Shown here in pieces: positions 5,356-42,292 of a DNA stretch of 42,292 nt (within the stretch, counting starts at the first letter, position 1; every line of letters starts with the position of its first letter). The position numbers and the translations under genes were made by a program. The notes beneath the pieces are model-generated. The model had not been told where the DNA came from. It worked only from the letters and a program-made list of their open reading frames with translations, and searched no databases. Source of the DNA: a virus. The stretch covers positions 1 through 42,292 of IMG/VR virus record IMGVR_UViG_3300010399_000018; one strand, 5' to 3'.

Positions 5356-5651
5356 TTAACCCATTCAAATTAGCCGACCGCGCGATCAAAAACGCCGTGA
5401 CCACCATCCGCCGCGAAAAGATGCGAAGGAATCTTTTCGCCTTCCAGGGAGACGAAGAACCGAACCGCCGCGGCCGACGTCACTACGCCGCCGAACAGCG
5501 CCGCGCCGATCGCCGCTCCATGCGGTCGCTCAGGCGCCAGGAAGCCGAGGAACTGTTCAAACGAACGTGTACTCGACCTCGCCATCGAAACGGCCCCTGC
5601 AACGGTCTGCCGCGCGAAGACTGCCCACAGTTAAGCCATGCCGGACTTTGA
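5352..5651 (+). CDS. arginine-rich hypothetical protein
   Basis: 99 residues. The ATG overlaps the upstream stop as ATGA, which decides the start. A much longer upstream extension of this frame would read antisense-like Arg/Pro-rich sequence through the neighbouring gene and is rejected. The product is extremely basic (RR and RRR runs in the middle) with three cysteines near the C-terminus. It overlaps the next gene by 14 bp. No family was recognised. A nucleic-acid-binding role would fit the charge but is conjecture. Confidence 0.65.
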   Translation: MINPFKLADRAIKNAVTTIRREKMRRNLFAFQGDEEPNRRGRRHYAAEQRRADRRSMRSLRRQEAEELFKRTCTRPRHRNGPCNGLPREDCPQLSHAGL

Positions 5652-6312
5652 TTATCTCGAGGTAACAGTCGAACCCGAACAAACCGGATCGCTCGCCTGG
5701 TTAAACGAAACCATCACGCTCGAAACTCCGGAGACTCTAGATCACCCACGCCAACATCGACGCCGCGGCCGGCGCCGGAGTCTGCGCGCGATCCGACAGG
5801 AGGCACTAGAGGAATTCTTTACCGAACTCCCGGAGCCAGGCGAATCGATCCATTTCATCAGTAACGGACGTTTCGACTATTGGAATTTTGTACCGGCGAC
5901 GCTGCGTCTAATGAACGAGAAACACGGAAATATTCCGGCCGTGTTCTACGGTTCGACGTGGACCATGAACCGGTCGAACGTGCTTCAGCTCCTAAACCTC
6001 TACGACCAAAAGAAACTAGCGGCCGTGACGATGTTCTCCGGGCTTTACTTCAAACGACGCGAGCCGGCCGTCTACACAGCCCTCGCCGAGGGATTCATTG
6101 ATCGCGGTCAAAGGTTTCTATGTTTTGAGAACCACACGAAAATAATGCTGATCGCCGCCGGCGACTACTACATCACGATCGAAGGATCCGCAAACTTCAC
6201 CTATAACCCGCGCCTCGAACAAAACTGTGTAACGAACGACGCTGGTCTATTCGAATTCCATCGCGGTTGGATGGAAGAGTTACTCGCCAAATGCAAAACG
6301 ACTCCGAACTGA
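5638..6312 (+). CDS. phospholipase-D-like (HKD-type) domain protein
   Basis: 224 residues. After a variable, Arg-rich N-terminus, residues about 75-224 resemble half of a PLD/nuclease fold. The key segment near residue 170 is HTKIMLI followed 15 residues later by IEGSANFTYNPR, i.e. the HxK and GSxN elements of the HKD motif. The usual Asp eight residues after the His is not in the expected place. One HKD half per chain implies dimerisation, as in bacterial Nuc-type nucleases. Similar proteins are found beside terminase genes in other phages. It may process DNA or act as a phage-borne nuclease. Confidence 0.7.
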   Translation: MPDFDYLEVTVEPEQTGSLAWLNETITLETPETLDHPRQHRRRGRRRSLRAIRQEALEEFFTELPEPGESIHFISNGRFDYWNFVPATLRLMNEKHGNIPAVFYGSTWTMNRSNVLQLLNLYDQKKLAAVTMFSGLYFKRREPAVYTALAEGFIDRGQRFLCFENHTKIMLIAAGDYYITIEGSANFTYNPRLEQNCVTNDAGLFEFHRGWMEELLAKCKTTPN

Positions 6313-6728: not shown

Positions 6729-7322
6729 ATGCAAACCTCATTTAGCATTCGCGAACTCTCACGCTTAACTGGCATCGATCGAAAGAAAATTTCGGAGCTG
6801 CTCGCCGGCATAGGTGAAGAACCAACGCTCGAGGAAATTGTCGCGGCCTTTGTTGGAGTGAAAGCGCCCGAGCGCGATCCCGGTCTCTACTCAATCTCCG
6901 CACTCGCAAAACTCACCACACTAGATCGCTCGACTGTTACCGCGCGCCTGGACGGGATCGCGTCGCATCCTGGACCAAAGGGAGCGAAGCGTTACGCGCT
7001 CGCCGATGCTCTGCCGGCATTGATCGCCGGCCGTGACCTATCACTCGACGAGGCGAAACTCAAACGCGAGCGAATCCGAGCCTCACGCGAAGAGTTTAAC
7101 TTCAATCGCGAGCTAAAGACGTTTGTTCCGGTCGCCGACGTCAGAAACGAACTTCACGAAATTTTCAAAGCCCTACACAACCGCCTGATCGTGCAATTCT
7201 GGAGAGACTTCGCCGATCGACTTCACAACGCCAAGACGCCCGGCGAGCTCGCCGAACTAGGCCAAACCACACAGGCCAAAAACTTCGATGTCCTCCGAAC
7301 AAATTACAAATCTCTTCTCTGA
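6729..7322 (+). CDS. small terminase subunit, Nu1-like
   Basis: 197 residues with two MerR/excisionase-like winged HTH units in tandem: FSIRELSRLTGIDRKKISELL at the N-terminus and YSISALAKLTTLDRSTVTARL near residue 60. The helical segment from LSLDEAKLKRERIRASREEFNF matches the linker helix region of Nu1/DUF1441-type DNA-packaging proteins. It should bind the packaging site (cos) and present DNA to TerL. It overlaps the TerL start by 35 bp in another frame, a normal small/large terminase arrangement. The duplicated wHTH is noteworthy because Nu1 has one per subunit. Confidence 0.7.
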   Translation: MQTSFSIRELSRLTGIDRKKISELLAGIGEEPTLEEIVAAFVGVKAPERDPGLYSISALAKLTTLDRSTVTARLDGIASHPGPKGAKRYALADALPALIAGRDLSLDEAKLKRERIRASREEFNFNRELKTFVPVADVRNELHEIFKALHNRLIVQFWRDFADRLHNAKTPGELAELGQTTQAKNFDVLRTNYKSLL

Positions 7323-9348
7323 TTCGATCCGCGCCGCCATCCCGGACGGAAGCCTAAAGGTTTCCGAATGGGCCGAGCGTTACCGCATCTTGCCGCCACA
7401 GCGCGCGGACCGCTCCGGCCCCTGGTCGAACGCCGTCACCCCTCACCTACGCGAACCGATGGACACGGTTACTAATCCGGACGTCGAAGAGATCGACTTC
7501 ATGGCCTCGGCGCAAATTGCAAAGACTGAATTCCTGGTAAACGTCGCCGGTTACAAAATCCACATTGACCCAGGCCCGATCCTCTACGTCGCAGAAACCG
7601 AAGACAAAGCACAAGCCTGGTCGAAAGAATGTTTCACGCCGACGGTCCGCGTTACTCCGGAACTCCGCGCGCTCGTGAGCGAAGGCCGGTCGCGCGATAG
7701 CGAGAACACGATTTTCTATAAGACATTCCCCGGCGGCCACATCGCGATCGTCGCGGCCACGTCGCCGGCGAGTTTGTCATCGCGTCCCGTTCGCGATCTT
7801 CTGCTCGACGAATGCGACGCCTACAAGCCCACCGCCGAAGGCGATCCCGTCGAGCTCGCCGAAAAACGAACGACCACATTTTTCGCAAACAGAAAAATTA
7901 TCAAAGTCACGTCGCCGCGCGATCGCGAAACGTCCACGATCGAACCCGCCTATCTATCATCGGATCGAAGAAAGTATTTTGTTCCCTGCCCTCATTGTCT
8001 CGAGCCCCAGGTCCTCGCCTGGACAGAAGGCCGCTGCTGCTGCCCGAAACAGGACCCGGCCGAACGCTGCCACCTAAAACACGGTTTCGTTAAGTGGGAC
8101 CACGGCGATCCGCGGACCGCTTACTACATTTGCAAAAACGGTTGCGAAATTCTCCCGCACCTAAAGCCGCGAATGCTCGCCGCCGGAGAGTGGCGCGCGG
8201 AACGCGAGCTCCGCCGGCGCGCCGGCTTTTGGATTAACGAACTCTATTCGCCGTTTGTGACGTGGCCGGAAATGGCGGAGAAGTTTCTCGAAAAGAAAGA
8301 CGATCCGGAAAGCCTGAAAGTCTTCACGAATACATCGCTCGCCGAAACATGGGATCCGGTAACAGGACAAATCAACATTAAGGACCTCACGGACCGACAG
8401 GAGAGTTACCAGGAAGAAACGATCCCCGACGAAATTCTAATCCTGGTTGTCGGGATCGATATTCAGCGCGATCGAATCGAACTCGAAATAAAAGGTTACG
8501 GCGCCGGCTTTGAGAGCTGGGGAATAAAGTACCTGGTTCTATGGGGAAGCCCGGCGATGCCGGAGGTTTGGGACGAACTCTCGAAAGTTTTAACGACGCA
8601 CTTCAAGACCACCGCCGGCCGCGAGCTCCGGATCGCCGGCGCCGCGATCGACTCCGGAGACGGAGTACACACGAAAGACGTTTACAAGTTCTGCCGCGCG
8701 CATGGCCTCGGCATCTACAAAATCGGCGAGAAGAAATTCCGCGGCGCACTCACGTTTGCGATCAAGGGAGCAAACACACCAGGTAAACCGCTAGTCTCGA
8801 AACCAACCAAACAAGGCCGGCCGCCGATCTGGCTTTACACGATCGGAACCGGCGCCGCGAAGGACTCAATAGCCGGTCGCCTCGAGATTAAATTCAAGGA
8901 AGGAATACCGAAGCCCGGCGCCTGTCACTTCTCGAAAACTTATCCGGAAGCCTATTTCCAACACCTTCGATCGGAAAAACCGGTAACGCGGATCTGGCAT
9001 GGAAAAGCCGTTCGCTTTTGGGAGCCATTGAAGGAAGGAATCAGAAACGAGGGACTCGACTGTTTTGTTTACGCCGAGGCCGCCCTGCAAATCTATCTAC
9101 AAAAATTCCGCGTCAATCTGCGCCAGCTCCAGGAGAAAGCCGAGGCCGAACGAAAACGAATCGATGAGGAAAGGCAAAAAGCAAACGAGCCGCCCGCGGA
9201 ACCAGCGCCGCCGGCGATGGTTTTCGATCCGACGCTCGAGCCGGACGATGAAGACGAATTTATGATCAAGGTTCGACAGAAGCGCGGAGGCCGCCGCTTT
9301 ATCCCACGAACGAGCGGAAACTTTGTCACCGGCCGCGACGACGATTAA
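7288..9348 (+). CDS. large terminase subunit, lambda gpA family
   Basis: 686 residues, usual length for the family. An N-terminal EWAERYRILPP motif precedes the ATPase. The Walker-A-like segment is ASAQIAKTE (about 73-81) and Walker B is LLLDECDAY (171-179). A cysteine cluster (CPHC...CCCP...C) follows at about residues 230-280. The RNase-H-like nuclease begins with VVGIDIQRDRIELE and contains AAIDSGDGVHT, supplying acidic metal ligands. The C-terminus is highly charged, as expected for procapsid docking. It packages DNA into the head and cuts at cos. The P-loop glycine before Lys is Ala here (AKTE rather than GKTE), a deviation also seen, to my recollection, in other gpA homologues. Confidence 0.95.
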   Translation: MSSEQITNLFSDSIRAAIPDGSLKVSEWAERYRILPPQRADRSGPWSNAVTPHLREPMDTVTNPDVEEIDFMASAQIAKTEFLVNVAGYKIHIDPGPILYVAETEDKAQAWSKECFTPTVRVTPELRALVSEGRSRDSENTIFYKTFPGGHIAIVAATSPASLSSRPVRDLLLDECDAYKPTAEGDPVELAEKRTTTFFANRKIIKVTSPRDRETSTIEPAYLSSDRRKYFVPCPHCLEPQVLAWTEGRCCCPKQDPAERCHLKHGFVKWDHGDPRTAYYICKNGCEILPHLKPRMLAAGEWRAERELRRRAGFWINELYSPFVTWPEMAEKFLEKKDDPESLKVFTNTSLAETWDPVTGQINIKDLTDRQESYQEETIPDEILILVVGIDIQRDRIELEIKGYGAGFESWGIKYLVLWGSPAMPEVWDELSKVLTTHFKTTAGRELRIAGAAIDSGDGVHTKDVYKFCRAHGLGIYKIGEKKFRGALTFAIKGANTPGKPLVSKPTKQGRPPIWLYTIGTGAAKDSIAGRLEIKFKEGIPKPGACHFSKTYPEAYFQHLRSEKPVTRIWHGKAVRFWEPLKEGIRNEGLDCFVYAEAALQIYLQKFRVNLRQLQEKAEAERKRIDEERQKANEPPAEPAPPAMVFDPTLEPDDEDEFMIKVRQKRGGRRFIPRTSGNFVTGRDDD

Positions 9349-11721: not shown

Positions 11722-13761
11722 ATGCCACTCACCACCGCACAAACCGCCGATATCCGCCAACTCGTGGGCCAAACGGTTGAACGCGCTTTCTCTGTAGAGC
11801 GCGCCAAAGTCGATCTCGATAATCGCACCGTCGAAGTCGCCTTTTCGTCCGAAACCCCGGTCGAAAACTGGTTTGGTTACGAAATCCTCGATCACGGGCC
11901 CGATGCTTGTGATCTCTCCCGCCTCAACGGACGCGGCGCCGTCCTGGTCTGTCACGATCGTTACGATCAAGTCGGAGTAACCGACACCGCCCGCGTCGAT
12001 AAAGATCGCATGGGCCGCGCAATGGTTCGCTTCTCTCGCAGCGACCGCGGCGCCGAGATCATGAATGACGTTAACGACGGCATTCGCACCACGATCAGCG
12101 TTCGCTATATCCGCAACGCAATGATTCTCGAAAAGGACGGTACCGACGAAACGATGCCGACCTATCGCACAACCAAGTGGACGCCCCTGGAGATCTCGTT
12201 CGAACCGATCCCGGCAGATGAAGCCGCCGGCGTCGGCCGCACCCGCACCGACCGAACTTTTAATCACGGCGCCTTCACGCCGGAAGAACTCGACGCCCTG
12301 CGCGAGTTACTCACACCCAAAACCCCGCCGGCGCCGGATAGTGCAGACGTCCGCACCGCTCCCGATCCCGCCTCAACTACTGAAAGGAACCTCGATCCCA
12401 TCATGGCTACAGAAGCCCCCACCCCCACCCCGAGCGGCAATACCGTTGCCCGCGAGATCATCGAATTAGGCGACCTGGTAGGACTGCGCGACTTCGCCGT
12501 CGACCTCAGTCTCGAGAAAGACATCACGCTCGAGTCAGCGCGCGAAAAGATCGCCGCGAAGAGAAAAGACGGACAGAAGCCCACTCCACAAAAGACCGCC
12601 GAGGAAATCTCCCGCGAACGTAGTCCGGAAGATACCGGCGTTCAGTTTCCCTATGCGTCGAAGCCGCGCTTTTTCAAAGGCGCGACCACCGCAGAGGCAG
12701 CGCGAAAAGCCTATCGCTTCGGCAAATGGCTTTTGGCTGGTCCACTCGGAAACGCAGAGGCGCGCAAATACTGCCAGGAGAACGGCATCCCCGTCGTTAT
12801 CGAACGCACACAGCAGGAAGGAAACAACGTTACCGGCGGTTTCCTGGTCCCGCATGAATTCGGCAACGACATGATCGACCTCAAAGAAGAGTACGGCGAT
12901 TTTCGAAAGTTCACGAACGTCGTACCAATGGCCGGCGACACCAAGAGCGAGCCGCGCCGTCAGGGAGGTTTGGTCTTCCGCTTTGTCGGTGAATCAGAAG
13001 CCGGCACCGTCGACGATCTGGCATGGGGCAATGTGTTGTTAAGCGCGAAGAAAGGAATGTGTCTCGCGCGCATCAGCTCCGAACTCAACGAAGATTCGCT
13101 CATCAATACCGCCGATCGAAACTTCTATGAAATGTCCTACGCGCAAGCAGTCAAAGAGGACGAATGCGGTTTCAACGGCGATGGCAGCGCCACACACGGC
13201 GGCATGGTCGGCGTTCGCCAGGCCTTAAAAGGTTTGAGCGGAACGATCGCCAACATTGCCGGCCTGGTCGTCGCGAGCGGCACCGGTTACGCGACCAGCT
13301 ATAACTCGATCGTGCTAGGCGATCTCAGCAAAGTAAAAGGCCGACTGCCGAAGTACGCGATCAAACGTGGACCTCGCTGGTTTATGAGCCAAACACTTTG
13401 GGCCGAGAAGATCGAAGCGATTGCACTTGCCGGCGGAGGCGTGACCTCTACCGAAATCGCGAACGGAGCGCCGCCGCGACTGCTCGGTTATCCGGTCGAA
13501 ATCTGTCAGGCGATGCCGAGCGTTTCGGACGTGAGCCAAGTCGCTATTCTGTTCGGCGCCCTCGATCTTGGATCGATGCTTGGCGATCGTCGTCAAATGG
13601 CCTTCGCACTCTCAGAACATTCCCGATTCGCGAACGACGAGATCGAACTCCGCGGAACCGCGCGCTTCGACGTTGTCGTTCACGACGTAGGCAATGCTTC
13701 CGCGACCGCTTCGCTACGTGTACCAGGTCCGATCGTCGGATTGATTACCGCTGCGTCGTAA
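11722..13761 (+). CDS. prohead protease-major capsid protein fusion (HK97 fold)
   Basis: 679 residues. Residues 1-180 are an S78/U35-type prohead protease: H78 in LVCHDRYDQVG, S126 in TTISVRYI, and the PLEISFEPIPAD motif supplying the third position. A Pro/Thr-rich linker (about 200-230) contains a dispersed palindrome. Residues about 235-300 resemble a helical delta/scaffold domain. From about residue 365 (GGFLVPHEFGNDMIDL, the N-arm) to the end is an HK97-fold capsid protein with E-loop, P-domain and A-domain segments such as VKGRLPKYAIKRGPRWFMS. The protease should cut itself and the scaffold away during maturation. A ribosome-binding site and ATG lie inside the linker (see 12381). Confidence 0.93.
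   Translation: MPLTTAQTADIRQLVGQTVERAFSVERAKVDLDNRTVEVAFSSETPVENWFGYEILDHGPDACDLSRLNGRGAVLVCHDRYDQVGVTDTARVDKDRMGRAMVRFSRSDRGAEIMNDVNDGIRTTISVRYIRNAMILEKDGTDETMPTYRTTKWTPLEISFEPIPADEAAGVGRTRTDRTFNHGAFTPEELDALRELLTPKTPPAPDSADVRTAPDPASTTERNLDPIMATEAPTPTPSGNTVAREIIELGDLVGLRDFAVDLSLEKDITLESAREKIAAKRKDGQKPTPQKTAEEISRERSPEDTGVQFPYASKPRFFKGATTAEAARKAYRFGKWLLAGPLGNAEARKYCQENGIPVVIERTQQEGNNVTGGFLVPHEFGNDMIDLKEEYGDFRKFTNVVPMAGDTKSEPRRQGGLVFRFVGESEAGTVDDLAWGNVLLSAKKGMCLARISSELNEDSLINTADRNFYEMSYAQAVKEDECGFNGDGSATHGGMVGVRQALKGLSGTIANIAGLVVASGTGYATSYNSIVLGDLSKVKGRLPKYAIKRGPRWFMSQTLWAEKIEAIALAGGGVTSTEIANGAPPRLLGYPVEICQAMPSVSDVSQVAILFGALDLGSMLGDRRQMAFALSEHSRFANDEIELRGTARFDVVVHDVGNASATASLRVPGPIVGLITAAS
12340..12357. 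repeat. dispersed palindrome copy 2
   Basis: AGTGCAGACGTCCGCACC, identical over 18 bp to the copy at 3059. It lies in the linker between the protease and scaffold/capsid parts of the fusion gene, read as Ser-Ala-Asp-Val-Arg-Thr. Confidence 0.9.
12381..12405 (+). promoter_or_regulatory. internal ribosome-binding site and in-frame ATG in the capsid fusion
   Basis: GAAAGGA at 12382-12388 lies 14 bases before an in-frame ATG at 12403 (codon 228 of the fusion). Translation from here would give a 452-residue scaffold-capsid product without the protease, allowing excess capsid protein relative to protease. The principle resembles the nested starts in lambda C/Nu3. The spacing is longer than ideal, so efficiency is uncertain. 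Confidence 0.5.
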
Positions 13762-28115: not shown

Positions 28116-28520
28116 ATGAACCAAGATCAGCGAACAATAACGCTCGAAAAGCTAAGACTAACAGTGCTGCATCGTGTCGAAGAGACGCTCGTCGACGCTT
28201 GCGTCGAATGCAGCGATTACGAAGGATTCATTTACGACGCGATCGAATTCAAAGTAACCGGAGCGATCTACAGCGAACGAGGCGAACCGTTGATCATCGA
28301 ATATCCGGAGAACTGGATCCAGGCATTCAAAGCCCGATGGTTTCCGGCCTGGTTAAAACGATTCTTTCCGGTCCGCCTGGTTAGCCACTGCATTACAACC
28401 AAAACCCTCTACCCAAATTTCCGCGTTAGTATGCCGTCGATACATAGCCATCTTTTGAAATGGAACCATAGAAAAACGCTCTTGACTGATCCGCTCGACG
28501 AGGACACTTTGTTCCAATGA
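28116..28520 (+). CDS. hypothetical protein of the post-fibre accessory operon
   Basis: 134 residues, no signal peptide. Charged N-terminal helix, a mid-part with LIIEYPENWIQAFKARWFPAWLKRFFPV (Trp/Arg-rich, possibly membrane-interfacial; shown in pieces as EYPENWIQAFKARWF and PAWLKRFFP) and a basic C-terminus. It is first in a tight operon with the Tat-signal proteins: its stop overlaps the next ATG. No family was recognised. Many siphoviruses carry a small Trp-rich protein of this size after tail genes. Confidence 0.65.
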   Translation: MNQDQRTITLEKLRLTVLHRVEETLVDACVECSDYEGFIYDAIEFKVTGAIYSERGEPLIIEYPENWIQAFKARWFPAWLKRFFPVRLVSHCITTKTLYPNFRVSMPSIHSHLLKWNHRKTLLTDPLDEDTLFQ

Positions 28521-28804
28521 ACCGCCGATCATTTATCACCACCGCACTCGCCGGCCTCGGCGCCGTCGCATTACTGCCACAGGTAGCGACTGCGTCCGAG
28601 CCGGAAACCTTAACCGTAAAAGAGTGGGCCGAAAAACACCGGATCGAAAAGTGGGATCCGCTCGAACTCTCCTATCTGCCGATTGTGCCGACGATGCCCG
28701 CCGGTTGGGTTTACCTTCGATTCCACGATTCCAAGCCGCCGCGGATCGCGGACCGTCCCGCCCGATTTCTTGTTCTGTCCGACGAGCCCGATCCATTCAC
28801 ATGA
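28517..28804 (+). CDS. Tat-signal small exported protein, paralogue 1
   Basis: 95 residues. The first 27 residues are a twin-arginine signal (MNRRSFITTALAGLGAVAL, with cleavage probably after ATA). The mature part has LTVKEWAEKHRIEKWD, then RPARFLVLSDEPDPF at the end. It is paralogous to the protein at 29089: the signal, the LTVKEWAEK motif and the SD-rich C-terminus are shared, while the middle differs. The RR motif implies export of a folded protein to the periplasm. Function is unknown. A lysogenic-conversion or exclusion role is possible. Confidence 0.7.
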   Translation: MNRRSFITTALAGLGAVALLPQVATASEPETLTVKEWAEKHRIEKWDPLELSYLPIVPTMPAGWVYLRFHDSKPPRIADRPARFLVLSDEPDPFT

Positions 28805-28822: not shown

Positions 28823-29092
28823 ATGCGCGTCGCAGTTCTGAGAATCACGCCCGAACTGTTCGTCGAATTCTGCAAAGCCTGTCAGGATGGACCTCTGCGG
28901 TCTTTTGTCGTGACCGCTAATGCCCTGCCGGCCGACGCCACCGTCATAAACCTTCGAGGGGATCCAAACCTTGAACTTATTGAGTTGCTAATCCAGTCGG
29001 AAACCTTCGACGAGTTACCGGAAGGCCAAGCGCCGCCGACGCTGGATCCTGTAGTCTTTCGGACAGACTTTCGAAACCCGGTCATACAATGA
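28823..29092 (+). CDS. hypothetical protein between the Tat-signal paralogues
   Basis: 89 residues, strong AAAGGAG site. Alternating hydrophobic strands (MRVAVLRITPELFVEF, FVVTANALPADATVINL) and an acidic helix (LELIELLIQSETFDEL) suggest a small alpha/beta cytoplasmic protein. The stop overlaps the ATG of the second Tat-signal gene, so it is co-translated with it. It could be an immunity partner or chaperone, but this rests only on position. Confidence 0.65.
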   Translation: MRVAVLRITPELFVEFCKACQDGPLRSFVVTANALPADATVINLRGDPNLELIELLIQSETFDELPEGQAPPTLDPVVFRTDFRNPVIQ

Positions 29093-29457
29093 ATCGCCGA
29101 TCATTTATCGCCAGCGCGGTCGCGGGCGCCCTCGGCGCTTCCGGACTACTCAGAACCGCGCGCGGTAGCGCCGGATCGCAACCGCGAGCCTTGACCGTCA
29201 AAGAGTGGGCCGAAAAATACCGCGAGCCCGGCGGTTTCCTGGTCCCGCAAGAATTCGCCGACGATATGATCGAGCTCCGAAAGATTTACGCGAGCTTCGA
29301 CGGAGGACCATTCCAGTTTCTAGGACTCGCGCCGGCGCCTCCGCCATTATCGGCGAGGCCGTTTCGACGATTTTTCGTAAGCGACGACAATGCTGAACCA
29401 CTGCCTATCCTTGCTCGCCGGCGCCGCGATCGTTTGGGCCGGAATCTTGATCGCTGA
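29089..29457 (+). CDS. Tat-signal small exported protein, paralogue 2, with capsid-derived segment
   Basis: 122 residues. The Tat signal is MNRRSFIASAVAGALGAS. The mature protein has ALTVKEWAEKYR, then GGFLVPQEFADDMIELRKIY, which matches the N-arm of this phage's own capsid protein (GGFLVPHEFGNDMIDL) at protein and DNA level: 29230-29277 against 12835-12882, 43 of 48 bases, with the first 20 identical. A C-terminal SARPFRRFFVSDD segment matches paralogue 1. The last 15 residues are Arg-rich. It looks like a Tat-signal gene that acquired a capsid fragment. Whether the fragment is exported or functional is unknown. Confidence 0.7.
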   Translation: MNRRSFIASAVAGALGASGLLRTARGSAGSQPRALTVKEWAEKYREPGGFLVPQEFADDMIELRKIYASFDGGPFQFLGLAPAPPPLSARPFRRFFVSDDNAEPLPILARRRRDRLGRNLDR

Positions 29458-30566: not shown

Positions 30567-31742
30567 TCACGCGCGCTTGCCCTTGTCGACTTTTTGACGA
30601 GGTAGGACTAAATCTGCCACCGCTGCACGACGACTTTCCCTCGTCGAGTGGGCATAGCGGAGGCTCATAACTTTGTCCGAATGTCCCACTACATCCTGCA
30701 CCGTTTTCAGGTCGTGTCCGCGCCGCAACATCTCTGTGGTCGCCGTGTGCCTGGTCGAGTGCGGCGTGAAACCATCAGGAAGATTCGTCCCGTAGCGTAG
30801 CCCGAGCTGAAGTGCGACCGGCCGGATCACGCGCGAGATTTCTTTGCGCGGACCATCACCTCGCTCGTTTGGAAAAACATAGCGACTGTTGAAGTGTTTC
30901 GGCGCGCCGCTGAGACTGCCCTTCTGGCCTCGCAGTTTCTGCCGCCGGCCAAAGATCTTGACCGCGCGATCGTTGAGCAGAACCACCCGCGGTTCGCGCG
31001 TCTTCGTTTTGTGAGCCGGTAAATGAATCTCTGCCTGGTCCAACTCTATTTCGCTCCATTCAAGAGAGCGCACCTCGCCACCACGCATACCGGTTAACAA
31101 CGCGATCTCAAAACAGTCCGCGACATCGCGACGTGACACAACATCCTTCGCCGCCAGCTTGCCCCCGTCGGCACGACCGCTCGAGAACCTCAGTTCTTGC
31201 AGGAGCGCGCGGGTCTCCTCGGCCGAGATCACGCGCTCGCGGCCGCGCCGACTTTCCTTTTGCCACGGGATTCGCGGCGGCCGCCAGTCCTCGTCCAATT
31301 CCGAGAACATCGAGGGCGCCGCCCGCAGCATCACAGACACTTCCGCTAGATAACGATTGCAGCCCGGCGGCCCGCATGAGCGTCGCCCCAATCCTTTAAC
31401 CTTTAATCTCTTCACCCATTCTCGAAGATGTGCCGATCGAAGTTCATCGAGATACAGGCCGGGAGGTAACGAAGCGAGAAACGATTCCACGATCTTTTTC
31501 AACTGCCGCCCTCGCGGTCGTGACTGATCGATCTCGCTACCGTGCTGCCGAACGAGTTCCCCGACCGTGACACGCGGACGCTCCAGCTCGAGCCCAAATT
31601 TGCCGCGCTTCGCTTGGACCTTCAATTCGGCGACAAACTCGTCAGCGCGCTTTTTCGAAGTGAAGCCATGTTCCCGTATCCGACGACCCTTTATCGTTAC
31701 GTCGACATTCCAGTTACCCTTTGAGATTTCCCTAATCTTCAA
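30567..31742 (-). CDS. int: phage integrase, tyrosine recombinase
   Basis: 391 residues. N-terminal arm-binding domain (about 1-60), core-binding SAM-like domain (60-160), catalytic domain (170-391) with R220 in TGMRGGEVRSL, a Lys near 245, H328 and R331 in PHSTRHT, H354 in VVGHSD and Y363 in SLRYAHST. This is the full R-K-H-R-H-Y set. It should integrate and excise the genome. It is the 3' end of the only leftward operon, 14 bp after the secreted-protein gene, so it is probably transcribed with it. Base use resembles a host-like rather than a late-gene pattern. Confidence 0.92.
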   Translation of the reverse strand: MKIREISKGNWNVDVTIKGRRIREHGFTSKKRADEFVAELKVQAKRGKFGLELERPRVTVGELVRQHGSEIDQSRPRGRQLKKIVESFLASLPPGLYLDELRSAHLREWVKRLKVKGLGRRSCGPPGCNRYLAEVSVMLRAAPSMFSELDEDWRPPRIPWQKESRRGRERVISAEETRALLQELRFSSGRADGGKLAAKDVVSRRDVADCFEIALLTGMRGGEVRSLEWSEIELDQAEIHLPAHKTKTREPRVVLLNDRAVKIFGRRQKLRGQKGSLSGAPKHFNSRYVFPNERGDGPRKEISRVIRPVALQLGLRYGTNLPDGFTPHSTRHTATTEMLRRGHDLKTVQDVVGHSDKVMSLRYAHSTRESRRAAVADLVLPRQKVDKGKRA

Positions 31743-33047: not shown

Positions 33048-33509
33048 TTGATCGGAGTCCCCTCAAAGTCTTTTTCAACGAAACGCGGCCGACCCAGAGC
33101 CGCGCGGCCGCCGAGTCGATCGGTTAGGTGGGTAACTGATCGACTCGGTGAGGGAAAAAGCGACGAAGTGGGGGAATCCTTATTCAACGAGATTCGCGAC
33201 GAACTGCGTGAGATCCGCGCACTACTCGCCGACCATGTAGTCATCGGACCCGACGACTTGGTTGATGCCAAATACATCTCGCGCCGAACCGGTCTCGCTG
33301 AAAGGACAATCCTCGAGGGGAAAGCCGGCACACGAACTTTACAGCCGCGAGTCGAGTTACGTGATCACCCAAGCGCCAGGCCGCTGATCCGGTGGAAACG
33401 ATCCACGGTCGATCGTTGGATCGCCGAGCGCGTCGACGAAGCCACAAAAAAAGACCCACAACGGCGCGCGCTGAAACTGTTACAGCCGAAGAAACGGACA
33501 CGAGCATGA
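33048..33509 (+). CDS. excisionase/AlpA-like HTH protein
   Basis: 153 residues if started at the TTG at 33048, which has GGAGGGG 12 bp upstream. Another TTG at 33024 and an in-frame GTG at 33168 are alternatives. A coiled stretch (EIRDELREIRALLADH) precedes a winged-helix DNA-binding domain typical of excisionases (LVDAKYISRRTGLAERTIL, then LIRWKRSTVDRWIAERVDE) and a basic tail. The RWxxSxVDxWI element is typical of Xis/AlpA. It may control excision with the integrase. The 5' part of this frame spans a 38-bp inverted repeat, so the true start may be at 33168. Confidence 0.65.
   Translation: MIGVPSKSFSTKRGRPRAARPPSRSVRWVTDRLGEGKSDEVGESLFNEIRDELREIRALLADHVVIGPDDLVDAKYISRRTGLAERTILEGKAGTRTLQPRVELRDHPSARPLIRWKRSTVDRWIAERVDEATKKDPQRRALKLLQPKKRTRA
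33111..33148. promoter_or_regulatory. inverted repeat IR1, 16-bp arms
   Basis: Arms 33111-33126 and 33133-33148 pair across a 6-base loop (GGTGGG) with one G-U-compatible mismatch. It lies in the 5' part of the excisionase-like frame. It could be a protein-binding site or an RNA hairpin controlling translation. Confidence 0.7.
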
Positions 33510-34650: not shown

Positions 34651-36564
34651 TTGAACGCTTCCGCCCCGGTTGTAGAAACCGAACCACAAACCGATCCACA
34701 AACCGAACCTAAACTCTCAGAACTGCTCCGAATGCCCGACGATCTCCGGACCGCCGGCTGGAGAATGTACACCGCCGGAGGACTCGAAGGATCGCCGCGG
34801 ACATTCAGAGCGAAAAACAAACTCATACAACTTTCGTCGCCGCTCACGGATTCGCCGGAGCTCGCGATCGACGCAGCTCGCCGACTGCTCGCCGGTGAGA
34901 CGCCGATCGTCAGTGCGGAGGGAGTTGTAACCTGGAAACCGACAAGCCGAGCCGATGAAACCGCGCGCCTGATAGCGCGGAAACAAATAGACGGACCAGC
35001 GCGAAACTCGCGAACTGTTTTTGACCAGGTAAAACTACAAGAACTCGCCGACTCAATCAGAGAACACGGAATCCTCGAGCCGCTTTTAGTGCGGCCGAAG
35101 GGAGATCGATTCGAAGTAGTTTTCGGCGAGCGCCGACTCCGCGCCGGCGATATGGCAGGCCTCGAAGAGTTACCTTGCCGCGTTCGCGAACTCACTGACC
35201 AAAAAGTCGACGAGTTGCAAACGATTGAGAACGACCAACGCGAGGACCTAAACCCGATCGAGCGCGGGAACGGATACATTCATTTACAAGAGGCGCACGG
35301 CCACACAACCGAATCGCTCGCAAAAGTGGTCGGAAAATCTCAAACGTATGTATGTGACCAAATCAAACTCGCGAAGCTGCCGCCGATTGCGCGCGAGGCC
35401 TTACTCGCTGGAAGTCTGCCGATCTCAACTGCGATCTTGATCGCGCGCGTACCGAACGACAAGAAACGCCAGCGCGCCGCGGAGCGAATCATCAATCCAG
35501 GATACGGATCCACACTGCTAAGTTTTCGCGACGCAAAATATGTAATCGAACGCGAATTCTCGACGCAGTTAAAGGGCGCTCCGTTCGATCGCGATGATGC
35601 AACTCTATTGCCGGCTGCCGGACCGTGTACCACTTGCCCCAAACTAACTGGAAACAATCGCGTCGAATTTCCAGACGGCCGCGCCGATATCTGTACGGAT
35701 CCGCCGTGCTTTAACGCGAAGATCGCGGCGCACAATGCACGAACGCGAAATAAGGCAAAGGAAAACGGGCTCAAGGTCCTGCCGACGTCGCAATGCAAGA
35801 GACTCTTTTCGCGCTTCTCCGGAGACAACGACGAACTCACGCGCGACGCGCCATACATCGACCTCTCCGAACAATGCCAGCTCGACACGAAGAAAAACAA
35901 ACGGAGTTACAAACAACTACTCGAGGGAGAGATCGAACCGGTCCTCGCGATCAATCCACGAACACACCGCGGCCGACTCCTGGTAGAGAAAACCGTCGCG
36001 GCTAAGGTCCTGAAAGAAAAACACAAAATAATCATTCAGGCCGAGAAACCCCGAACACCGACTAAACCGAACGCCGCGGCCGCTGCGAAACAAGAACTCG
36101 AGCGCGCCGTATTCGAACGCGCAACACAACTCGCCGCCGCGGAGATCGCGCGCCAGGCCGAGATCGAAACTGGACCACCAACGCGAAAGCGCGCTCTAAA
36201 CCAATTCGCGCGCTTAATGTTCCGAACCTCGCTTGAATTCTCCGGAGGCGAACCGGCCGAGGTAATCGCAACACAACTAAACTTAGTTCCCCGCTCCGAC
36301 AAAGAGCCGTCATTCCAATTCGCGTTAAAGGCCACGGAGAAATTCGCAGAACGCGCAACGGCGCCGCAGCTCTTCGGCTTGATTCTCGAAATGCAGTTTC
36401 TTGAGGGGAACTACCGCGCGACCAAACTCAGCGAACAACAAACCGAAATCCTGCAACTCTTCCCGCGTGTTGGCCCATTCAAAAAGTATTTAGACCTAGC
36501 GCGGGAAGAGTTAAGCCCAAATCCATCAACAACAACGAGAGGGAAAACTAAGGAAAAACGATAA
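34651..36564 (+). CDS. ParB-like CTP-binding partition protein with zinc knuckle
   Basis: 637 residues, longer than chromosomal ParB (about 300). The ParB/Srx-like domain spans about 125-215 with canonical CTP boxes GERRLRAG (159-166) and ENDQREDLNPIERG (193-206). An HTH follows (SLAKVVGKSQTYVCDQIKL, 222-240). C326, C329, C348 and C353 form a zinc knuckle (CTTCP ... CTDPPCF). The C-terminal 250 residues are helical and basic. It may load on a parS-like site and act in partition or replication control. No ParA is evident. It starts at TTG with GGAG upstream. It is followed by the replication gene. Confidence 0.8.
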   Translation: MNASAPVVETEPQTDPQTEPKLSELLRMPDDLRTAGWRMYTAGGLEGSPRTFRAKNKLIQLSSPLTDSPELAIDAARRLLAGETPIVSAEGVVTWKPTSRADETARLIARKQIDGPARNSRTVFDQVKLQELADSIREHGILEPLLVRPKGDRFEVVFGERRLRAGDMAGLEELPCRVRELTDQKVDELQTIENDQREDLNPIERGNGYIHLQEAHGHTTESLAKVVGKSQTYVCDQIKLAKLPPIAREALLAGSLPISTAILIARVPNDKKRQRAAERIINPGYGSTLLSFRDAKYVIEREFSTQLKGAPFDRDDATLLPAAGPCTTCPKLTGNNRVEFPDGRADICTDPPCFNAKIAAHNARTRNKAKENGLKVLPTSQCKRLFSRFSGDNDELTRDAPYIDLSEQCQLDTKKNKRSYKQLLEGEIEPVLAINPRTHRGRLLVEKTVAAKVLKEKHKIIIQAEKPRTPTKPNAAAAAKQELERAVFERATQLAAAEIARQAEIETGPPTRKRALNQFARLMFRTSLEFSGGEPAEVIATQLNLVPRSDKEPSFQFALKATEKFAERATAPQLFGLILEMQFLEGNYRATKLSEQQTEILQLFPRVGPFKKYLDLAREELSPNPSTTTRGKTKEKR

Positions 36565-36636: not shown

Positions 36637-37482
36637 TTGACCAAACCGAAACGAGCGAGACACCTTGCGGAAGTACAGCCAAATCAAGCGCATAACTTAG
36701 GAGCCCAGGCGCCCATAATTGGGACCCCAGGTGCCCAAACTCCAGCGATGGACGAATCGCGATTCCGATCGCGAATCGAGCGTCGGCCGAAAAAAGTCAG
36801 ACTGCCAGAGCAAAAGCTAACCCTTTGGGAAAACTGGTGTTTGGTTTACAAAATGGACTTTCAAGACCTAGTCGAAACATCGATCGATTTCTTCATGGCG
36901 CAGTTTGAAGCGAGCGCCTCGTCGGGTGCCCAGGTGCCCACATTTAATATTAATGATCGATCAAATGATGACGAGGTTTTAAATCTAGATCTCCCGTTAT
37001 TGGATCAGAATAGTGGGAGCCCAGGTGCCCAAAACATTCCCATTGAAGAATTAAAGGCGCGCCGCGCGCTTGAGTTTTACTCAGCCAAAACTGGAAACCC
37101 GATTCGCCCTCGCGACCGACAGGCCTTCGAAACCGGACACGACGAATTCCCCGGAGTGATGAACATGCCGCCGCATGTAATTCGCTACGGGATCATGGCC
37201 TCGATCCTGATCTGCAAATCAAAGGTGAACTCGTTTTCGTATTGCCTCGGACAAATTCACGCCGCCGCTGAAGCCGGAATCTCCCCGCAGATCTGCGCGT
37301 TCTTCGAACAGACGTTCGACGTTCGCCTAGCCGGAAAGAAAATTCAATTTGTCGATCCGGATACAAAAGCCTTGACGCCCGAAGGCGCCGAATACCTCGC
37401 ACGAATGAGAGCCGCCGGAAGCAAACAACCAACACTCCCAGGAACCGGAGCCGATCTTGTGGAAGGAGAATTCAAGAAGTGA
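36637..37482 (+). CDS. replication initiator candidate (DnaD-like C-terminus) with intragenic iterons
   Basis: 281 residues from a TTG with GGGAG upstream. A basic N-terminus is followed by a low-complexity part with four GAQ-containing peptides (LGAQAP, PGAQTP, SGAQVP, PGAQNI) that translate iteron DNA. LTLWENWCLVYKMDFQDLVE is a helical segment. The C-terminal domain (FYSAKTGNPIRPRDR ... VIRYGIMASILICKSKVNSFSYCLGQI) resembles DnaD/replisome-organiser helices (FYxxxTGN, IxxGIxxS, SFxYCLxxI). It likely opens the origin and recruits host helicase. Like lambda O, the origin would lie inside the gene. Confidence 0.6.
   Translation: MTKPKRARHLAEVQPNQAHNLGAQAPIIGTPGAQTPAMDESRFRSRIERRPKKVRLPEQKLTLWENWCLVYKMDFQDLVETSIDFFMAQFEASASSGAQVPTFNINDRSNDDEVLNLDLPLLDQNSGSPGAQNIPIEELKARRALEFYSAKTGNPIRPRDRQAFETGHDEFPGVMNMPPHVIRYGIMASILICKSKVNSFSYCLGQIHAAAEAGISPQICAFFEQTFDVRLAGKKIQFVDPDTKALTPEGAEYLARMRAAGSKQPTLPGTGADLVEGEFKK
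36700..37031. other. candidate replication origin: four iterons and AT-rich segment
   Basis: Direct repeats with consensus GGNSCCCAGGYGCCCA lie at 36700-36715, 36722-36737 (22-bp phase), 36925-36940 and 37016-37031. The interval 36941-37010 is conspicuously AT-rich (TTTAATATTAAT) in a GC-rich genome. The layout (iterons plus AT-rich unwinding element inside the initiator gene) parallels lambda ori in gene O. Two iterons flank the AT-rich part and two lie upstream. Confidence 0.65.
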
Positions 37483-37966: not shown

Positions 37967-39013
37967 ATGCCCGCCGCCGCTGTCCTCAAACTTGAAACGC
38001 CCACGACGCCGCTCGCAGTCCGTGATCCGGTCGAAATGTATCTAGCCAGCCTGCCGAGTAGATCGAGTCGGCGCACGATGCGATCAAAACTCGGAACGGT
38101 CCAACGACTTCTCGAGAAAAAGATCGAAGCGAACGACCTAATTTTCTTTGCCCTTGCCGCGCGCGCTTCACTGCAGGACGCCGGCGCCGCACCTAAGACG
38201 ATCAACGTCACACTCTCGGCTTTGAAGGGAGTCGCGCGTGCGGCCTGGTTGCTAGAACAAATAAGCGCCGAACAGTTCGAACGAGTTAAAGATATTCGCT
38301 CAGTGCGTGGGTCACGATTGCCCGCCGGCCGCGCCCATTATCCGCACGAGCTCGCGGCCATCCTGGAGGGCTGCGCTAAAGATCGTTCACCCGGCGGCGC
38401 GCGTGATGCCGCGATGTTCGCACTTGCCTACAACCTCGGACTACGTCGAGCGGAATGCGCTGGTCTGGACCTCAGTGATTACTCGCCAGCGACCGGAACG
38501 ATGCGAGTGCGCGGAAAAGGAAACAAAGAACGCCGCGCCTACCTTGTCGATGAGGGCGCCATAGAAGCCCTCAACGCCTGGTTACGAGTGCGGACGTTCG
38601 CACCTGGTCCGCTACTCTGCCCTGTAACACGTCACGGCCGAATAATCATCCGGAGACTCAGTGATAATTCAGTCTATCTAGCCTTGAGGAAGCGCGCGCG
38701 TGCCGTGGGAATAACCGATCTGACGCCCCACAATTTGCGCCGCACCTTTGGAACTGTGTTGTTAGACAGCGACGTCGATATAAAGATCGTGCGCGATTTA
38801 CTCGGACATTCGAGCCTAAATACGACTACACTCTATGATCGGCGTACTGAGGCCGCCCACCGCGAGGCCGCCAGTCTGCTCCGTTTGCCGTACCACGATC
38901 AACGACAACCGGAACTCCCGTTCGACAAAGAGTTAGAAAGAAAAGGCCCGCGTGAAATCTCCGGAGCCCGGAAACGAATTTCACGCGAGCCAGCCACCCG
39001 TATGCTCGCATAA
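37967..39013 (+). CDS. second tyrosine recombinase, XerC/D-like
   Basis: 348 residues. An N-terminal SAM-like core-binding domain (about 18-115) is followed by the catalytic domain: R160 in LGLRRAEC, K184 in RGKGNKER, H255 and R258 in PHNLRRTF, H281 in LLGHSS, Y290 in TTLYDRR. It lacks an arm-binding domain and so resembles XerC/D or plasmid resolvases rather than the phage integrase at 30567. It lies next to replication genes, so multimer resolution is likely. Alternatively it is a second integrase. Palindrome copy 5 lies within it, encoding Arg-Val-Arg-Thr. Confidence 0.88.
   Translation: MPAAAVLKLETPTTPLAVRDPVEMYLASLPSRSSRRTMRSKLGTVQRLLEKKIEANDLIFFALAARASLQDAGAAPKTINVTLSALKGVARAAWLLEQISAEQFERVKDIRSVRGSRLPAGRAHYPHELAAILEGCAKDRSPGGARDAAMFALAYNLGLRRAECAGLDLSDYSPATGTMRVRGKGNKERRAYLVDEGAIEALNAWLRVRTFAPGPLLCPVTRHGRIIIRRLSDNSVYLALRKRARAVGITDLTPHNLRRTFGTVLLDSDVDIKIVRDLLGHSSLNTTTLYDRRTEAAHREAASLLRLPYHDQRQPELPFDKELERKGPREISGARKRISREPATRMLA
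38587..38604. repeat. dispersed palindrome copy 5
   Basis: AGTGCGGACGTTCGCACC inside the second recombinase gene. It follows the 18-bp consensus exactly. In the protein it falls in a surface-like LRVRTFAPGP segment. Confidence 0.9.
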
Positions 39014-39624: not shown

Positions 39625-39657
39625 AAAAAAACCTTTTCCAAATCAAAAAGGAGAGAC

Positions 39658-41232
39658 GTGGAACAAACCACGGTCCATTTAGGATTCGAAGTCGGAACGG
39701 GAAACCCCGTTATTGTGCCTTTGGCCCATACCTTTGTGACCGGTCAAACACAGCTTAGCGGAAAGACAACCACACTCCGCGCGATCGTTGAGCGCGCCGG
39801 GAAACGAGCGATCGCCTTTGTTACAAAACGAGGCGAACACTTCGAAGGCCAACGGATTCCGCCTTACCTACCGCGCGAAGGAAAAGAACAAATTCCGTGG
39901 CGCCTGGTCGAGACGATCATGGCCGCCGCTTTAGGACAGCGAAACATGAAATGGGAGCGAGGCGCGATCGTCACGGCCGCCAAAGGCGCAACCACGCTCG
40001 AAGAGGTACGCCGGAATGTTCAGAAACTCCACGACAAAACCAAGAACGTGAAAACGATCGAGCTCTACATGCTACTCGGCGAATACCTCGATCTAGTTTT
40101 GCCGGAAATGCGAGGCCTCAACGCATCACACGACCTAACACTGAGGCCCGGCCTTAACGTGATGGATCTTTCCGAGACTGGACCACAAACGCAAGCGATG
40201 GTTATTCGCGCCGTGCTCGAGCAAATCAATCGCCATGAATCCGAAGTGCTAACCGTGTTTCCGGAAGCGTGGGAGTTTGCGCCTCGATCGCGCGGCGCGC
40301 CGGCGAAAGATGAAGCGATCGCAATGGCGCGCAAAGGAGCCGGGATCGGAAACTTCCTTTTGTGCGACAGCCAGGACATAGCCGGCGTCGACACCGTAGT
40401 ACGCCAGGCCGCGAGTGTTTGGATCCTCGGAGTGCAGCGCGAACTAAACGAACTCAAACGAACGATCCAAATGATTCCGGCAGGGATTAAGCGACCGAAG
40501 CCCGAAGAGGTTTCAACGCTCGAGCTAGGTCAGTTTATTGCGTGTTGGGGAAAGCACACAGTTAAAACCTATGTGCAACCAATATGGTTAAGTGACGACG
40601 AAGCGCGCGCCGTCGCGCTTGGCGGTCCCGTACCGAAACCGCCGCCGGCGCCACAAAAAGCCGACGCCGAAATCTCAAATGAAAAACTTGATCTGATTCT
40701 CGACACGATACGCTCGCAAGGAAAACGAATTAGTGACCTGGAAAACCGTTTCGACGAAATGCGCGGCGACGTCTATGTGAGACTGTCCACGATCGAGAAA
40801 CGCCCATCGTTAGACCACACAACTCTAAACCCTACTTCCCCGCGAACCACTAACAACGATCAGGAGTACGACATGGCTGACTTTGAAGAGTTTTACCGGC
40901 TAACACTTGAGAGACTACGGAAAGAAGCGCCGGCCCTCGTCGCGACGCTCGCCGTTGAGCCCGAGCTAATTGTGACCGTCGAAAAGAAACGCTATGAGTA
41001 CGACGCTAAAACTCCGATCGGAGGATTCGCGAAATTGATCGCGGAAGGATTCTTTGACAACACGCGATCGCCCAATTCTGCGTTTGAGGAACTGAAACGA
41101 CGTGGCTACAGCCTTGCGAAGCCGAGCGCCTACGGCTTCGCCAAGCAATTCGCGACGCTCGGATTCCTTACAATCGAAAAGGACGGATACAAAGCCGTCG
41201 ACAATTTGAAACGGAGCATTGTTGAGAAATGA
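39658..41232 (+). CDS. HerA/FtsK-type ATPase with winged-helix tail
   Basis: 524 residues from a GTG. A P-loop at 29-38 (GQTQLSGKTT) has one residue more than canonical Walker A. TKRGEHF follows near 57. VMDLSETGPQTQ is near 168. Walker B is replaced by TVFPEAWEFAP (199-209), keeping Glu but lacking the usual Asp. CDSQDIAGV and an Arg-finger-like GVQREL lie near 236-262. A Pro-rich and coiled linker precedes a winged-helix domain (GFAKLIAEGFFDN, FEELKRRGY, FAKQFATLGFLTIEKDGY). It may pump or remodel DNA. TerL is separate, so it is not the packaging motor. An internal start at 40873 could yield the tail alone. Confidence 0.78.
   Translation: MEQTTVHLGFEVGTGNPVIVPLAHTFVTGQTQLSGKTTTLRAIVERAGKRAIAFVTKRGEHFEGQRIPPYLPREGKEQIPWRLVETIMAAALGQRNMKWERGAIVTAAKGATTLEEVRRNVQKLHDKTKNVKTIELYMLLGEYLDLVLPEMRGLNASHDLTLRPGLNVMDLSETGPQTQAMVIRAVLEQINRHESEVLTVFPEAWEFAPRSRGAPAKDEAIAMARKGAGIGNFLLCDSQDIAGVDTVVRQAASVWILGVQRELNELKRTIQMIPAGIKRPKPEEVSTLELGQFIACWGKHTVKTYVQPIWLSDDEARAVALGGPVPKPPPAPQKADAEISNEKLDLILDTIRSQGKRISDLENRFDEMRGDVYVRLSTIEKRPSLDHTTLNPTSPRTTNNDQEYDMADFEEFYRLTLERLRKEAPALVATLAVEPELIVTVEKKRYEYDAKTPIGGFAKLIAEGFFDNTRSPNSAFEELKRRGYSLAKPSAYGFAKQFATLGFLTIEKDGYKAVDNLKRSIVEK
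40861..40875 (+). promoter_or_regulatory. internal ribosome-binding site and in-frame ATG in the ATPase gene
   Basis: CAGGAG at 40861-40866, 6-base spacer, ATG at 40873 (codon 406), placed just after a disordered linker and before the winged-helix tail. It would give a 119-residue DNA-binding product alone. Confidence 0.5.
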
Positions 41233-41417
41233 AAGACAAGGACGAAACGAACAACGACCACCAATCGCGAGTCGGACGTGAAAGGTTAATGGTTCGAATA
41301 GACGCGGAGATATTGAAAAGAGTTAGAGCGAAGTGCGTTAGCCAGTCTCCGCCGCTATCTATGGCCGCCGCCGTCGAGGATGCTTTGGGCCAATGGGTGA
41401 AAGGCGAACGCAAATGA
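41229..41417 (+). CDS. small RHH/antitoxin-like DNA-binding protein
   Basis: 62 residues. LMVRIDAEILKRVRAKCVSQ followed by SMAAAVEDALGQWV has the strand-helix-turn-helix layout of CopG/RHH proteins. ATGA overlap with the ATPase stop. It probably regulates the early operon or acts as an orphan antitoxin. Confidence 0.6.
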   Translation: MKDKDETNNDHQSRVGRERLMVRIDAEILKRVRAKCVSQSPPLSMAAAVEDALGQWVKGERK

Positions 41418-42043: not shown

Positions 42044-42292
42044 CGATCTAATCGACGAAATAGTAAGACGCGAAATCGAGCGCATCAACGTGATCATTAA
42101 CCAACAGCTCCTACACGCCACGTTCGACGGCCTTGTGTTGATGCCGCTTACGTTTGGCCCACCTGATAACGAACCGAATGGACGCGATCGCGCCGTTGCC
42201 TATCGCGACGCGCTCGATATGGGAAGCGACGAGGACCTGATCGAAGACGTGCTCGACTCCGACGTTCTAGTTCTAATGAAACCGCGGCCGGA
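42036..42292 (+). CDS. zinc-finger-like hypothetical protein, 5' part
   Basis: The GTG start at 42036 overlaps the preceding stop. The reading frame is open to the end of the window and continues at base 2 of the window through 367, giving about 166 residues in the circular molecule. The N-terminal half encoded here is helical and acidic with a VIINQQLLHATFDGLVLMPL core. The cysteine pairs lie in the other part. Confidence 0.8.
   Translation, partial: MSDDLIDEIVRREIERINVIINQQLLHATFDGLVLMPLTFGPPDNEPNGRDRAVAYRDALDMGSDEDLIEDVLDSDVLVLMKPRP
42170..42292. repeat. direct terminal repeat, right copy
   Basis: Identical to bases 1-123. See the left copy. Confidence 0.95.

Follow-up and report, generated by a model that had tools for sequence, protein, structure and literature searches.

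The window, by which we mean the whole 42,292-nt stretch of viral DNA analysed here (IMG/VR record IMGVR_UViG_3300010399_000018), is a closed circle with an exact 123-bp overlap between its ends (positions 1–123 and 42170–42292) and one ORF crossing the junction, and it is probably a complete genome. The gene under study, from a soil phage, is an ORF at 39658–41232 (+) that encodes a 524-aa ATPase. The ORF starts with GTG, which is closely preceded by a Shine-Dalgarno-like AAGGAG (39648–39653, +), and codon usage gives it clear support; these features and the homologues described below led us to reject a chance or mistranslated ORF. An ORF for a 62-aa small protein (41229–41417, +), weakly matched by a phage transcriptional repressor family (E 0.01), overlaps the stop of the ATPase gene by 4 bp. 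Upstream on the same strand lie genes for a ParB-like protein (34651–36564; PF02195, 1.5e-20), a possible replication initiator (36637–37482) and a Xer-like tyrosine recombinase (37967–39013; PF00589, 9.9e-30; XerC-like, 1.3e-37, below cut-off). A sequence-only reading of this DNA had named all three as neighbours of the ATPase; the ParB-like protein and the recombinase are borne out by their domains, whereas the putative initiator has no match in the families searched (Pfam, PHROG, NCBIfam). The unmatched ORF contains, at 36698–37033, an iteron-like repeat of about 20 nt in four copies (TGGGAGCCCAGGTGCCCAAA), and phage initiator genes can carry their own origin, with iteron-like repeats inside.

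The ATPase is composed of a motor core (residues 1–325; 39658–40632, +), a variable linker with a predicted coiled coil (40633–40983, +) and a C-terminal winged-helix domain (40984–41229, +). The core was modelled with AF2 from 36 sequences at a pLDDT of 93.1 and a pTM of 0.89, and the full-length protein, with eight sequences in the alignment, at a pLDDT of 71. In the full-length model, residues 332–442 are of low confidence, with pLDDT below 50 over 332–341, 353–407 and 426–442, and the linker is also variable in the family alignment. The winged helix is formed by three helices (residues 453–462, 472–481 and 488–500) and a beta hairpin (504–507 and 510–513), is modelled at a pLDDT of about 85–91, and carries the pattern ELxRRG...GFLT...GY, which is conserved in the family. 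The disordered linker and the winged-helix tail that had been read from the letters were both visible in the first full-length model.

The P-loop of the core starts at residue 29. In its Walker A motif, G29-QTQLS-GKTT38 (39742–39771, +), the second Gly stands six positions after the first, not five, which makes the motif one residue longer than the GXXXXGK(T/S) of the FtsK-HerA superfamily, as noticed at the outset. The extra residue is present family-wide, the Lys and Thr are retained, and a HMMER alignment to the Walker A motif of Pif1 opens a one-residue gap at this loop. The Walker B strand, located by alignments to Deinococcus radiodurans HerA (drHerA) and to the family, reads VLTVF-P202-E203-AWEFAPR210 (40246–40287, +); it lacks the usual Asp, again as first described, and has the Glu that follows. 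In place of the hhhhDE of the superfamily, hhhhPE is found in all members seen except one divergent relative (L063), which has DE. Strand 2 ends with V55-TKRGE60 (39820–39837, +) and strand 4 carries D237-S-Q239-D240, with Gln at the sensor position (40366–40377, +), both defined by the family alignment and comparison with L063. A four-helix insert occupies residues 81–153 of the core model (39898–40116, +), and R268 lies at 40459–40461 (+).

In a Foldseek comparison of the core model with the PDB, the best solved matches are all HerA proteins, with VirB4 next. The top match is Thermococcus kodakarensis HerA-NurA (E 5.5e-16, TMq 0.69), and Sulfolobus solfataricus and D. radiodurans HerA are also among the best; the TM values of 0.6–0.7 bear on the fold, not on the oligomer. 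In addition, the family profile matches the drHerA sequence with an E of 2e-4, and the four-helix insert is positioned as the HerA helix-bundle domain, which lies between strand 2 and helix 3 (PMC9960219). Judged by the model, it is near certain that the ATPase has a HerA-type fold, and the model, the Foldseek matches and the profile match all give it the core fold of the FtsK-HerA superfamily. The HAS barrel, through which NurA docks on HerA (PMC9960219, PMC12977600), is absent, with just 28 residues preceding the P-loop, and a NurA partner was not seen among the neighbours scanned. By the HAS barrel and nurA, the protein is a HerA-like motor outside the HerA family proper. The initial designation as a HerA/FtsK-like ATPase thus holds for the type of motor, but the fold and the insert are HerA's rather than FtsK's, and the HAS barrel is missing.

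Compared with HerA of Deinococcus, Thermococcus and Sulfolobus (HerA-NurA), the window ATPase shares the RecA-like fold, the four-helix bundle in the same place, the Walker B Glu, the sensor Gln and equivalents of the pore residues R495 and R552, and differs in the missing HAS barrel, the longer P-loop, the Walker B Pro in place of Asp, the extra Asp237 and Asp240, and the C-terminal winged helix. The order of motor and then winged helix is that of FtsK, where the winged helix is the gamma domain, and of TraB. Pfam FtsK_SpoIIIE matches the protein weakly (E 0.06; 13.2 bits, below the cut-off of 24), but, unlike FtsK, SpoIIIE and TraB, the window ATPase lacks a membrane domain, contains a HerA-type helix bundle and has other Walker A and B motifs, and the best Foldseek matches of the core do not include FtsK. 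The VirB4 conjugation ATPases resemble it in fold (Foldseek E 9.7e-10, TMq 0.67) and in the 'EAW' after the Walker B position, but it has neither the VirB4 N-terminal domain nor the Walker B Asp; no VirB4 or conjugation family profile matches it, and transfer families were not found among the scanned neighbours. The packaging ATPases of B204 (STIV)/A32 type belong to the same superfamily and give a weak profile match (E 0.055), but are much shorter and lack the winged helix. The terminase large subunit (TerL) of tailed phages is likewise a phage-encoded P-loop ATPase, but is of another fold group and has a nuclease domain, which the window ATPase lacks. For the window protein, none of the Pfam and NCBIfam models scored above its cut-off and PHROG gave no hit; a clear match to a known packaging or conjugation family, which would have told against the sequence-only reading, did not appear.

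A first scan of IMG/VR gave nine homologous loci at 50–75% identity. Searching with a DNA pattern that encodes GQTQxSGKTT brought up 54 loci, among which two (L065 and L094) are unrelated P-loops and one is the divergent relative L063. Across the 44 aligned members, Q32, K36, T37, E60, P202, E203 and D237 are fixed, Q239 is present in 43 of 44 and D240 in 43 of 43. Because these 44 members, all with the long Walker A motif, had been picked by that motif, its fixity needed a second, independent set. The pattern W.DSQD..GVD alone gave 20 further loci; G.[ST]Q.[SA]GKTT is present in all 15 of those with the P-loop covered, and PEAW in all of those with the Walker B region covered, which counters an ascertainment effect as the source of Walker A fixity. 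Since both deviations recur in an independently picked set, they go far beyond what chance would give and are characters of a large family, not errors. Together, the independent DNA patterns place the family on more than 60 uncultured viral contigs, dozens of them from viruses with no other relationship, among which the branch of the window has 100/100 support.

Searches of isolate records with tblastn, using several queries against INPHARED phages and/or PLSDB plasmids, gave no convincing match, and two scans of GTDB genomes, made with window-branch motifs only, found no relatives. The Pfam tally across 36 members consists of weak matches only, including AAA_10 in four of the 36 relatives (best E 5.5e-4). 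On these sequence comparisons, we describe a previously unnamed family of HerA-type motors whose variant active site is family-wide. Because Pfam and NCBIfam have no model for the family, and isolate phage and plasmid records yielded no member, annotation pipelines overlook it.

The window phage has its own TerL at 7288–9348 (+), as originally read, which matches PHROG 15 (E 4.4e-213) and is 39% identical to annotated TerLs; with this separate gene, and with no PHROG match to the ATPase, we reject the identification of the ATPase as a TerL. A TerL could be assigned in 22 or more of the 40 carrier genomes, with several unrelated types beside orthologous ATPases, and, judged by its P-loop, one further protein each of G015 and G021 resembles a divergent TerL. 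Within the 100/100 branch of the window, the window TerL is matched in only one of nine relatives. A packaging motor is expected to track the portal and the terminase, and the ATPase does not, which makes packaging unlikely in the window phage. Nor is the ATPase the only packaging ATPase of its virus, as those of A32/B204 type are. The presence of TerL and the lack of a packaging-family match agree with the earlier proposal that the motor acts on DNA in a non-packaging role, which we consider likely for the window phage.

A role as the main or an auxiliary genome-packaging motor, as played by HerA/A32-type ATPases in membrane-containing tailless viruses, draws on six carriers of the ATPase in which neither TerL nor portal is recognisable, on the precedent of the FtsK/HerA ATPases that package tecti/cortico-like viruses (PMC7824862), and on a weak match of 20 of 36 members to PHROG 2666, which is labelled terminase large subunit. 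Against it, besides the TerLs in the window phage and other carriers, the ATPase gene sits with early DNA genes. Moreover, the PHROG 2666 match spans only positions ~409–506 of 555, which is more in line with a HerA-like ATPase than with a TerL and its C-terminal nuclease, the same model also gives hits in 14 of 14 control genomes, archaea included, and the window protein itself has no match to it. Taken together, we judge a packaging role unlikely. As for PHROG 2666 itself, the region matched in the members runs from Walker B to the sensor, the terminase label of this model looks doubtful, and a HerA/VirB4-like profile is its more probable identity.

The six TerL-less genomes, G016, G018 (L146/L147), G024, G025 (L194/L195), G028 (L201/L202) and G032 (L185/L186), are those of uncultured viruses of ~33–37 kb that have some ten or more gene families in common, and several of them have exact terminal overlaps that point to closed circles. 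TerL and portal were not recognised in this group with PHROG 2, Pfam, PHROGs tallies and home-made profiles, a recognisable capsid was not found, and the candidate virion proteins gave no PDB or phage match. As the PHROGs tally covers the 25 commonest families in four of the six genomes, a very divergent TerL may have escaped it. These viruses may constitute an undescribed tailless group, and if they are tailless, the HerA-like protein would be their best candidate packaging motor. In G018, the ATPase is found among the early genes, on the strand opposite to most virion-like genes.

The Walker B Asp is regarded as a hallmark of P-loop motors. In the HMMER alignment to drHerA, P202 corresponds to D487, E203 to E488, R210 to R495 and R268 to R552 of the TR motif. 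D487 and E488 bind Mg, and their mutation impairs the drHerA ATPase, while R495 and R552 are pore residues required for translocation (PMC9960219). The window protein has thus lost a metal ligand and kept the DNA-gripping residues; outside the branch of the window, R210 is replaced by Gln, Glu or Lys. In strand 2, Glu60 is invariant, and residue 55 is non-acidic in the family (V/I) and Asp in L063; a search with an N-terminal family profile, made for the alignment of this strand to drHerA D220, did not retrieve HerA. R225 was considered as the arginine finger because of its invariance across the family, but was not assigned, as L063 has Thr there and the alignments to drHerA and B204 are shifted by one position. 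In STIV2 B204, a member of the same superfamily, the metal is bound by a Ser of Walker A, and ATP hydrolysis persists in the K17A or E104A protein (PMC4124505), a precedent by which an altered Walker B need not abolish activity.

The divergent relative L063 (10680–12401, −) combines a long P-loop, GQTQFSGKTT, with a canonical Walker B, VIDEA. Specifically, residues 55, 202, 237 and 240, which are V/I, P, D and D across the family, are D, D, S and F in L063. L063 and L212, which has the remodelled core, are 46% identical over the tail and 27% over the core, as if two versions of the core sat on the same chassis. This pattern is suggestive of acids that moved from strands 2 and 3 to strand 4, rather than being lost, an argument made from one outlier sequence and the strand order. 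L063 has no R225 and carries His at the position of R268, and is thus not a clean control; it is possibly the pre-switch form.

The loss of acidic residues at position 55 of strand 2 and position 202 of Walker B relative to L063, and the impaired ATPase of the D487/E488 mutants of drHerA, would both suit a nucleotide-binding but hydrolysis-dead ATPase that serves as a DNA clamp or scaffold. Dead sites, however, seldom evolve to keep K36, T37, E60, E203, D237, Q239 and D240 at the conservation given above, the window protein keeps the pore Arg positions, and L063 carries a canonical core on the same chassis, so we consider a dead enzyme quite improbable. Which acids a translocase needs could be tested directly on a large natural family such as this one, in which the Walker B Asp is gone while every other sign of selection is kept.

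The ATPase is the sole gene common to all 40 carrier genomes, which were chosen for it, and the next most shared families, DUF5131 and an ASCH-type protein, each occur in nine of the 40. Being far better conserved than the other genes of its carriers, the ATPase suggests a general, unstudied step in phage DNA handling. DUF5131 (phage Gp37/68-like) lies beside or near the ATPase in its nine carriers, for example at L085 9297–10172 (−). The other neighbours include DnaB, SSB, ERF, YqaJ, DUF1376, helicases and methylases, and such DNA-module neighbours are typical of any early phage gene.

ParB_N is above its cut-off in seven of 50 ATPase-bearing records (ten at E ≤ 1e-3), ParA occurs in two of 50, and in only two of 40 genomes is the recombinase family found six genes or fewer from the ATPase. 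The link that the sequence-only reading drew between the ATPase and its ParB, initiator and Xer-like neighbours is therefore not supported: ParB is not a constant partner, tight ParB/ParA linkage is rejected as general, and a partition role is not general. A motor that works with ParB or ParA to partition a prophage kept outside the chromosome, perhaps as a substitute for ParA, would suit the window, where the genome is circular, ParB is present and ParA was not recognised, as well as G008, with ParA directly downstream of the ATPase (4-bp overlap), G003, with one small gene between them, and G002 and G005, with ParB nearby. Most carriers, however, have neither ParB nor ParA, though some records are fragments, and we hold partition to be a poor prospect as the main role. 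Least probable is an end-processing, defence or counter-defence motor of HerA-NurA kind that needs a nuclease or effector partner: HerA-NurA and the HerA-Sir2/DUF4297 defence complexes are the closest folds, but NurA, Sir2 and DUF4297 were not found among the neighbours scanned, the HAS barrel on which NurA docks is absent, and no single partner gene recurs in the 40 genomes.

The reading that we prefer, and to which we give about an even chance, is that the ATPase is a phage-encoded, soluble HerA-type dsDNA translocase of an unnamed family, with a non-packaging role in TerL-bearing phages. The predicted motor is probably active as a dsDNA translocase. By analogy with HerA, the subunits would form a ring, with R210 and R268 as the pore arginines past which double-stranded phage DNA is threaded; the flexibly tethered winged helix at the C-terminus would recruit this ring to DNA or orient it there. 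K36 and T37 of the lengthened P-loop would hold ATP. Pro202 would occupy the place of the metal-binding Walker B carboxylate (D487 in drHerA), for which Asp237 and Asp240 on the adjacent sensor strand most likely stand in, with Glu60 and Glu203 retained. Encoded in an early DNA-metabolism module, the motor may act on replicating or circular phage genomes by moving, separating or processing them. In this explanation, it is the hexamer, the activity, the relocation of the acids and the task that we infer. A broader scenario is tentative: in a widespread viral family with a longer P-loop, the metal-binding Asp would have moved from Walker B to the sensor strand, L063 would be a pre-switch relative, and the gene would have been exchanged between tailed phages and the terminase- and portal-less group, perhaps serving as the packaging motor there.

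Several other features of the window were observed. At 33111–33148, two 16-nt arms (CCGAGTCGATCGGTTA / TAACTGATCGACTCGG) with 94% complementarity and a 6-nt spacer form an inverted repeat, possibly an operator or a parS-like site. A second tyrosine recombinase (30567–31742, −; PF00589, 6.1e-25) is encoded on the strand opposite to almost all other genes. Short ORFs at 28517–28804 and 29089–29457 start with a Tat-signal-like MNRRSFI...A..G.LGA followed by LTVKEWAEK, and the latter contains GGFLVPQEFADDMIEL, similar to GGFLVPHEFGNDMIDL in the ORF at 11722–13761, which looks like the major capsid protein. Upstream of the terminase, the ORF at 5638–6312 contains a phospholipase-D-like HTKIML...GSANFT stretch.
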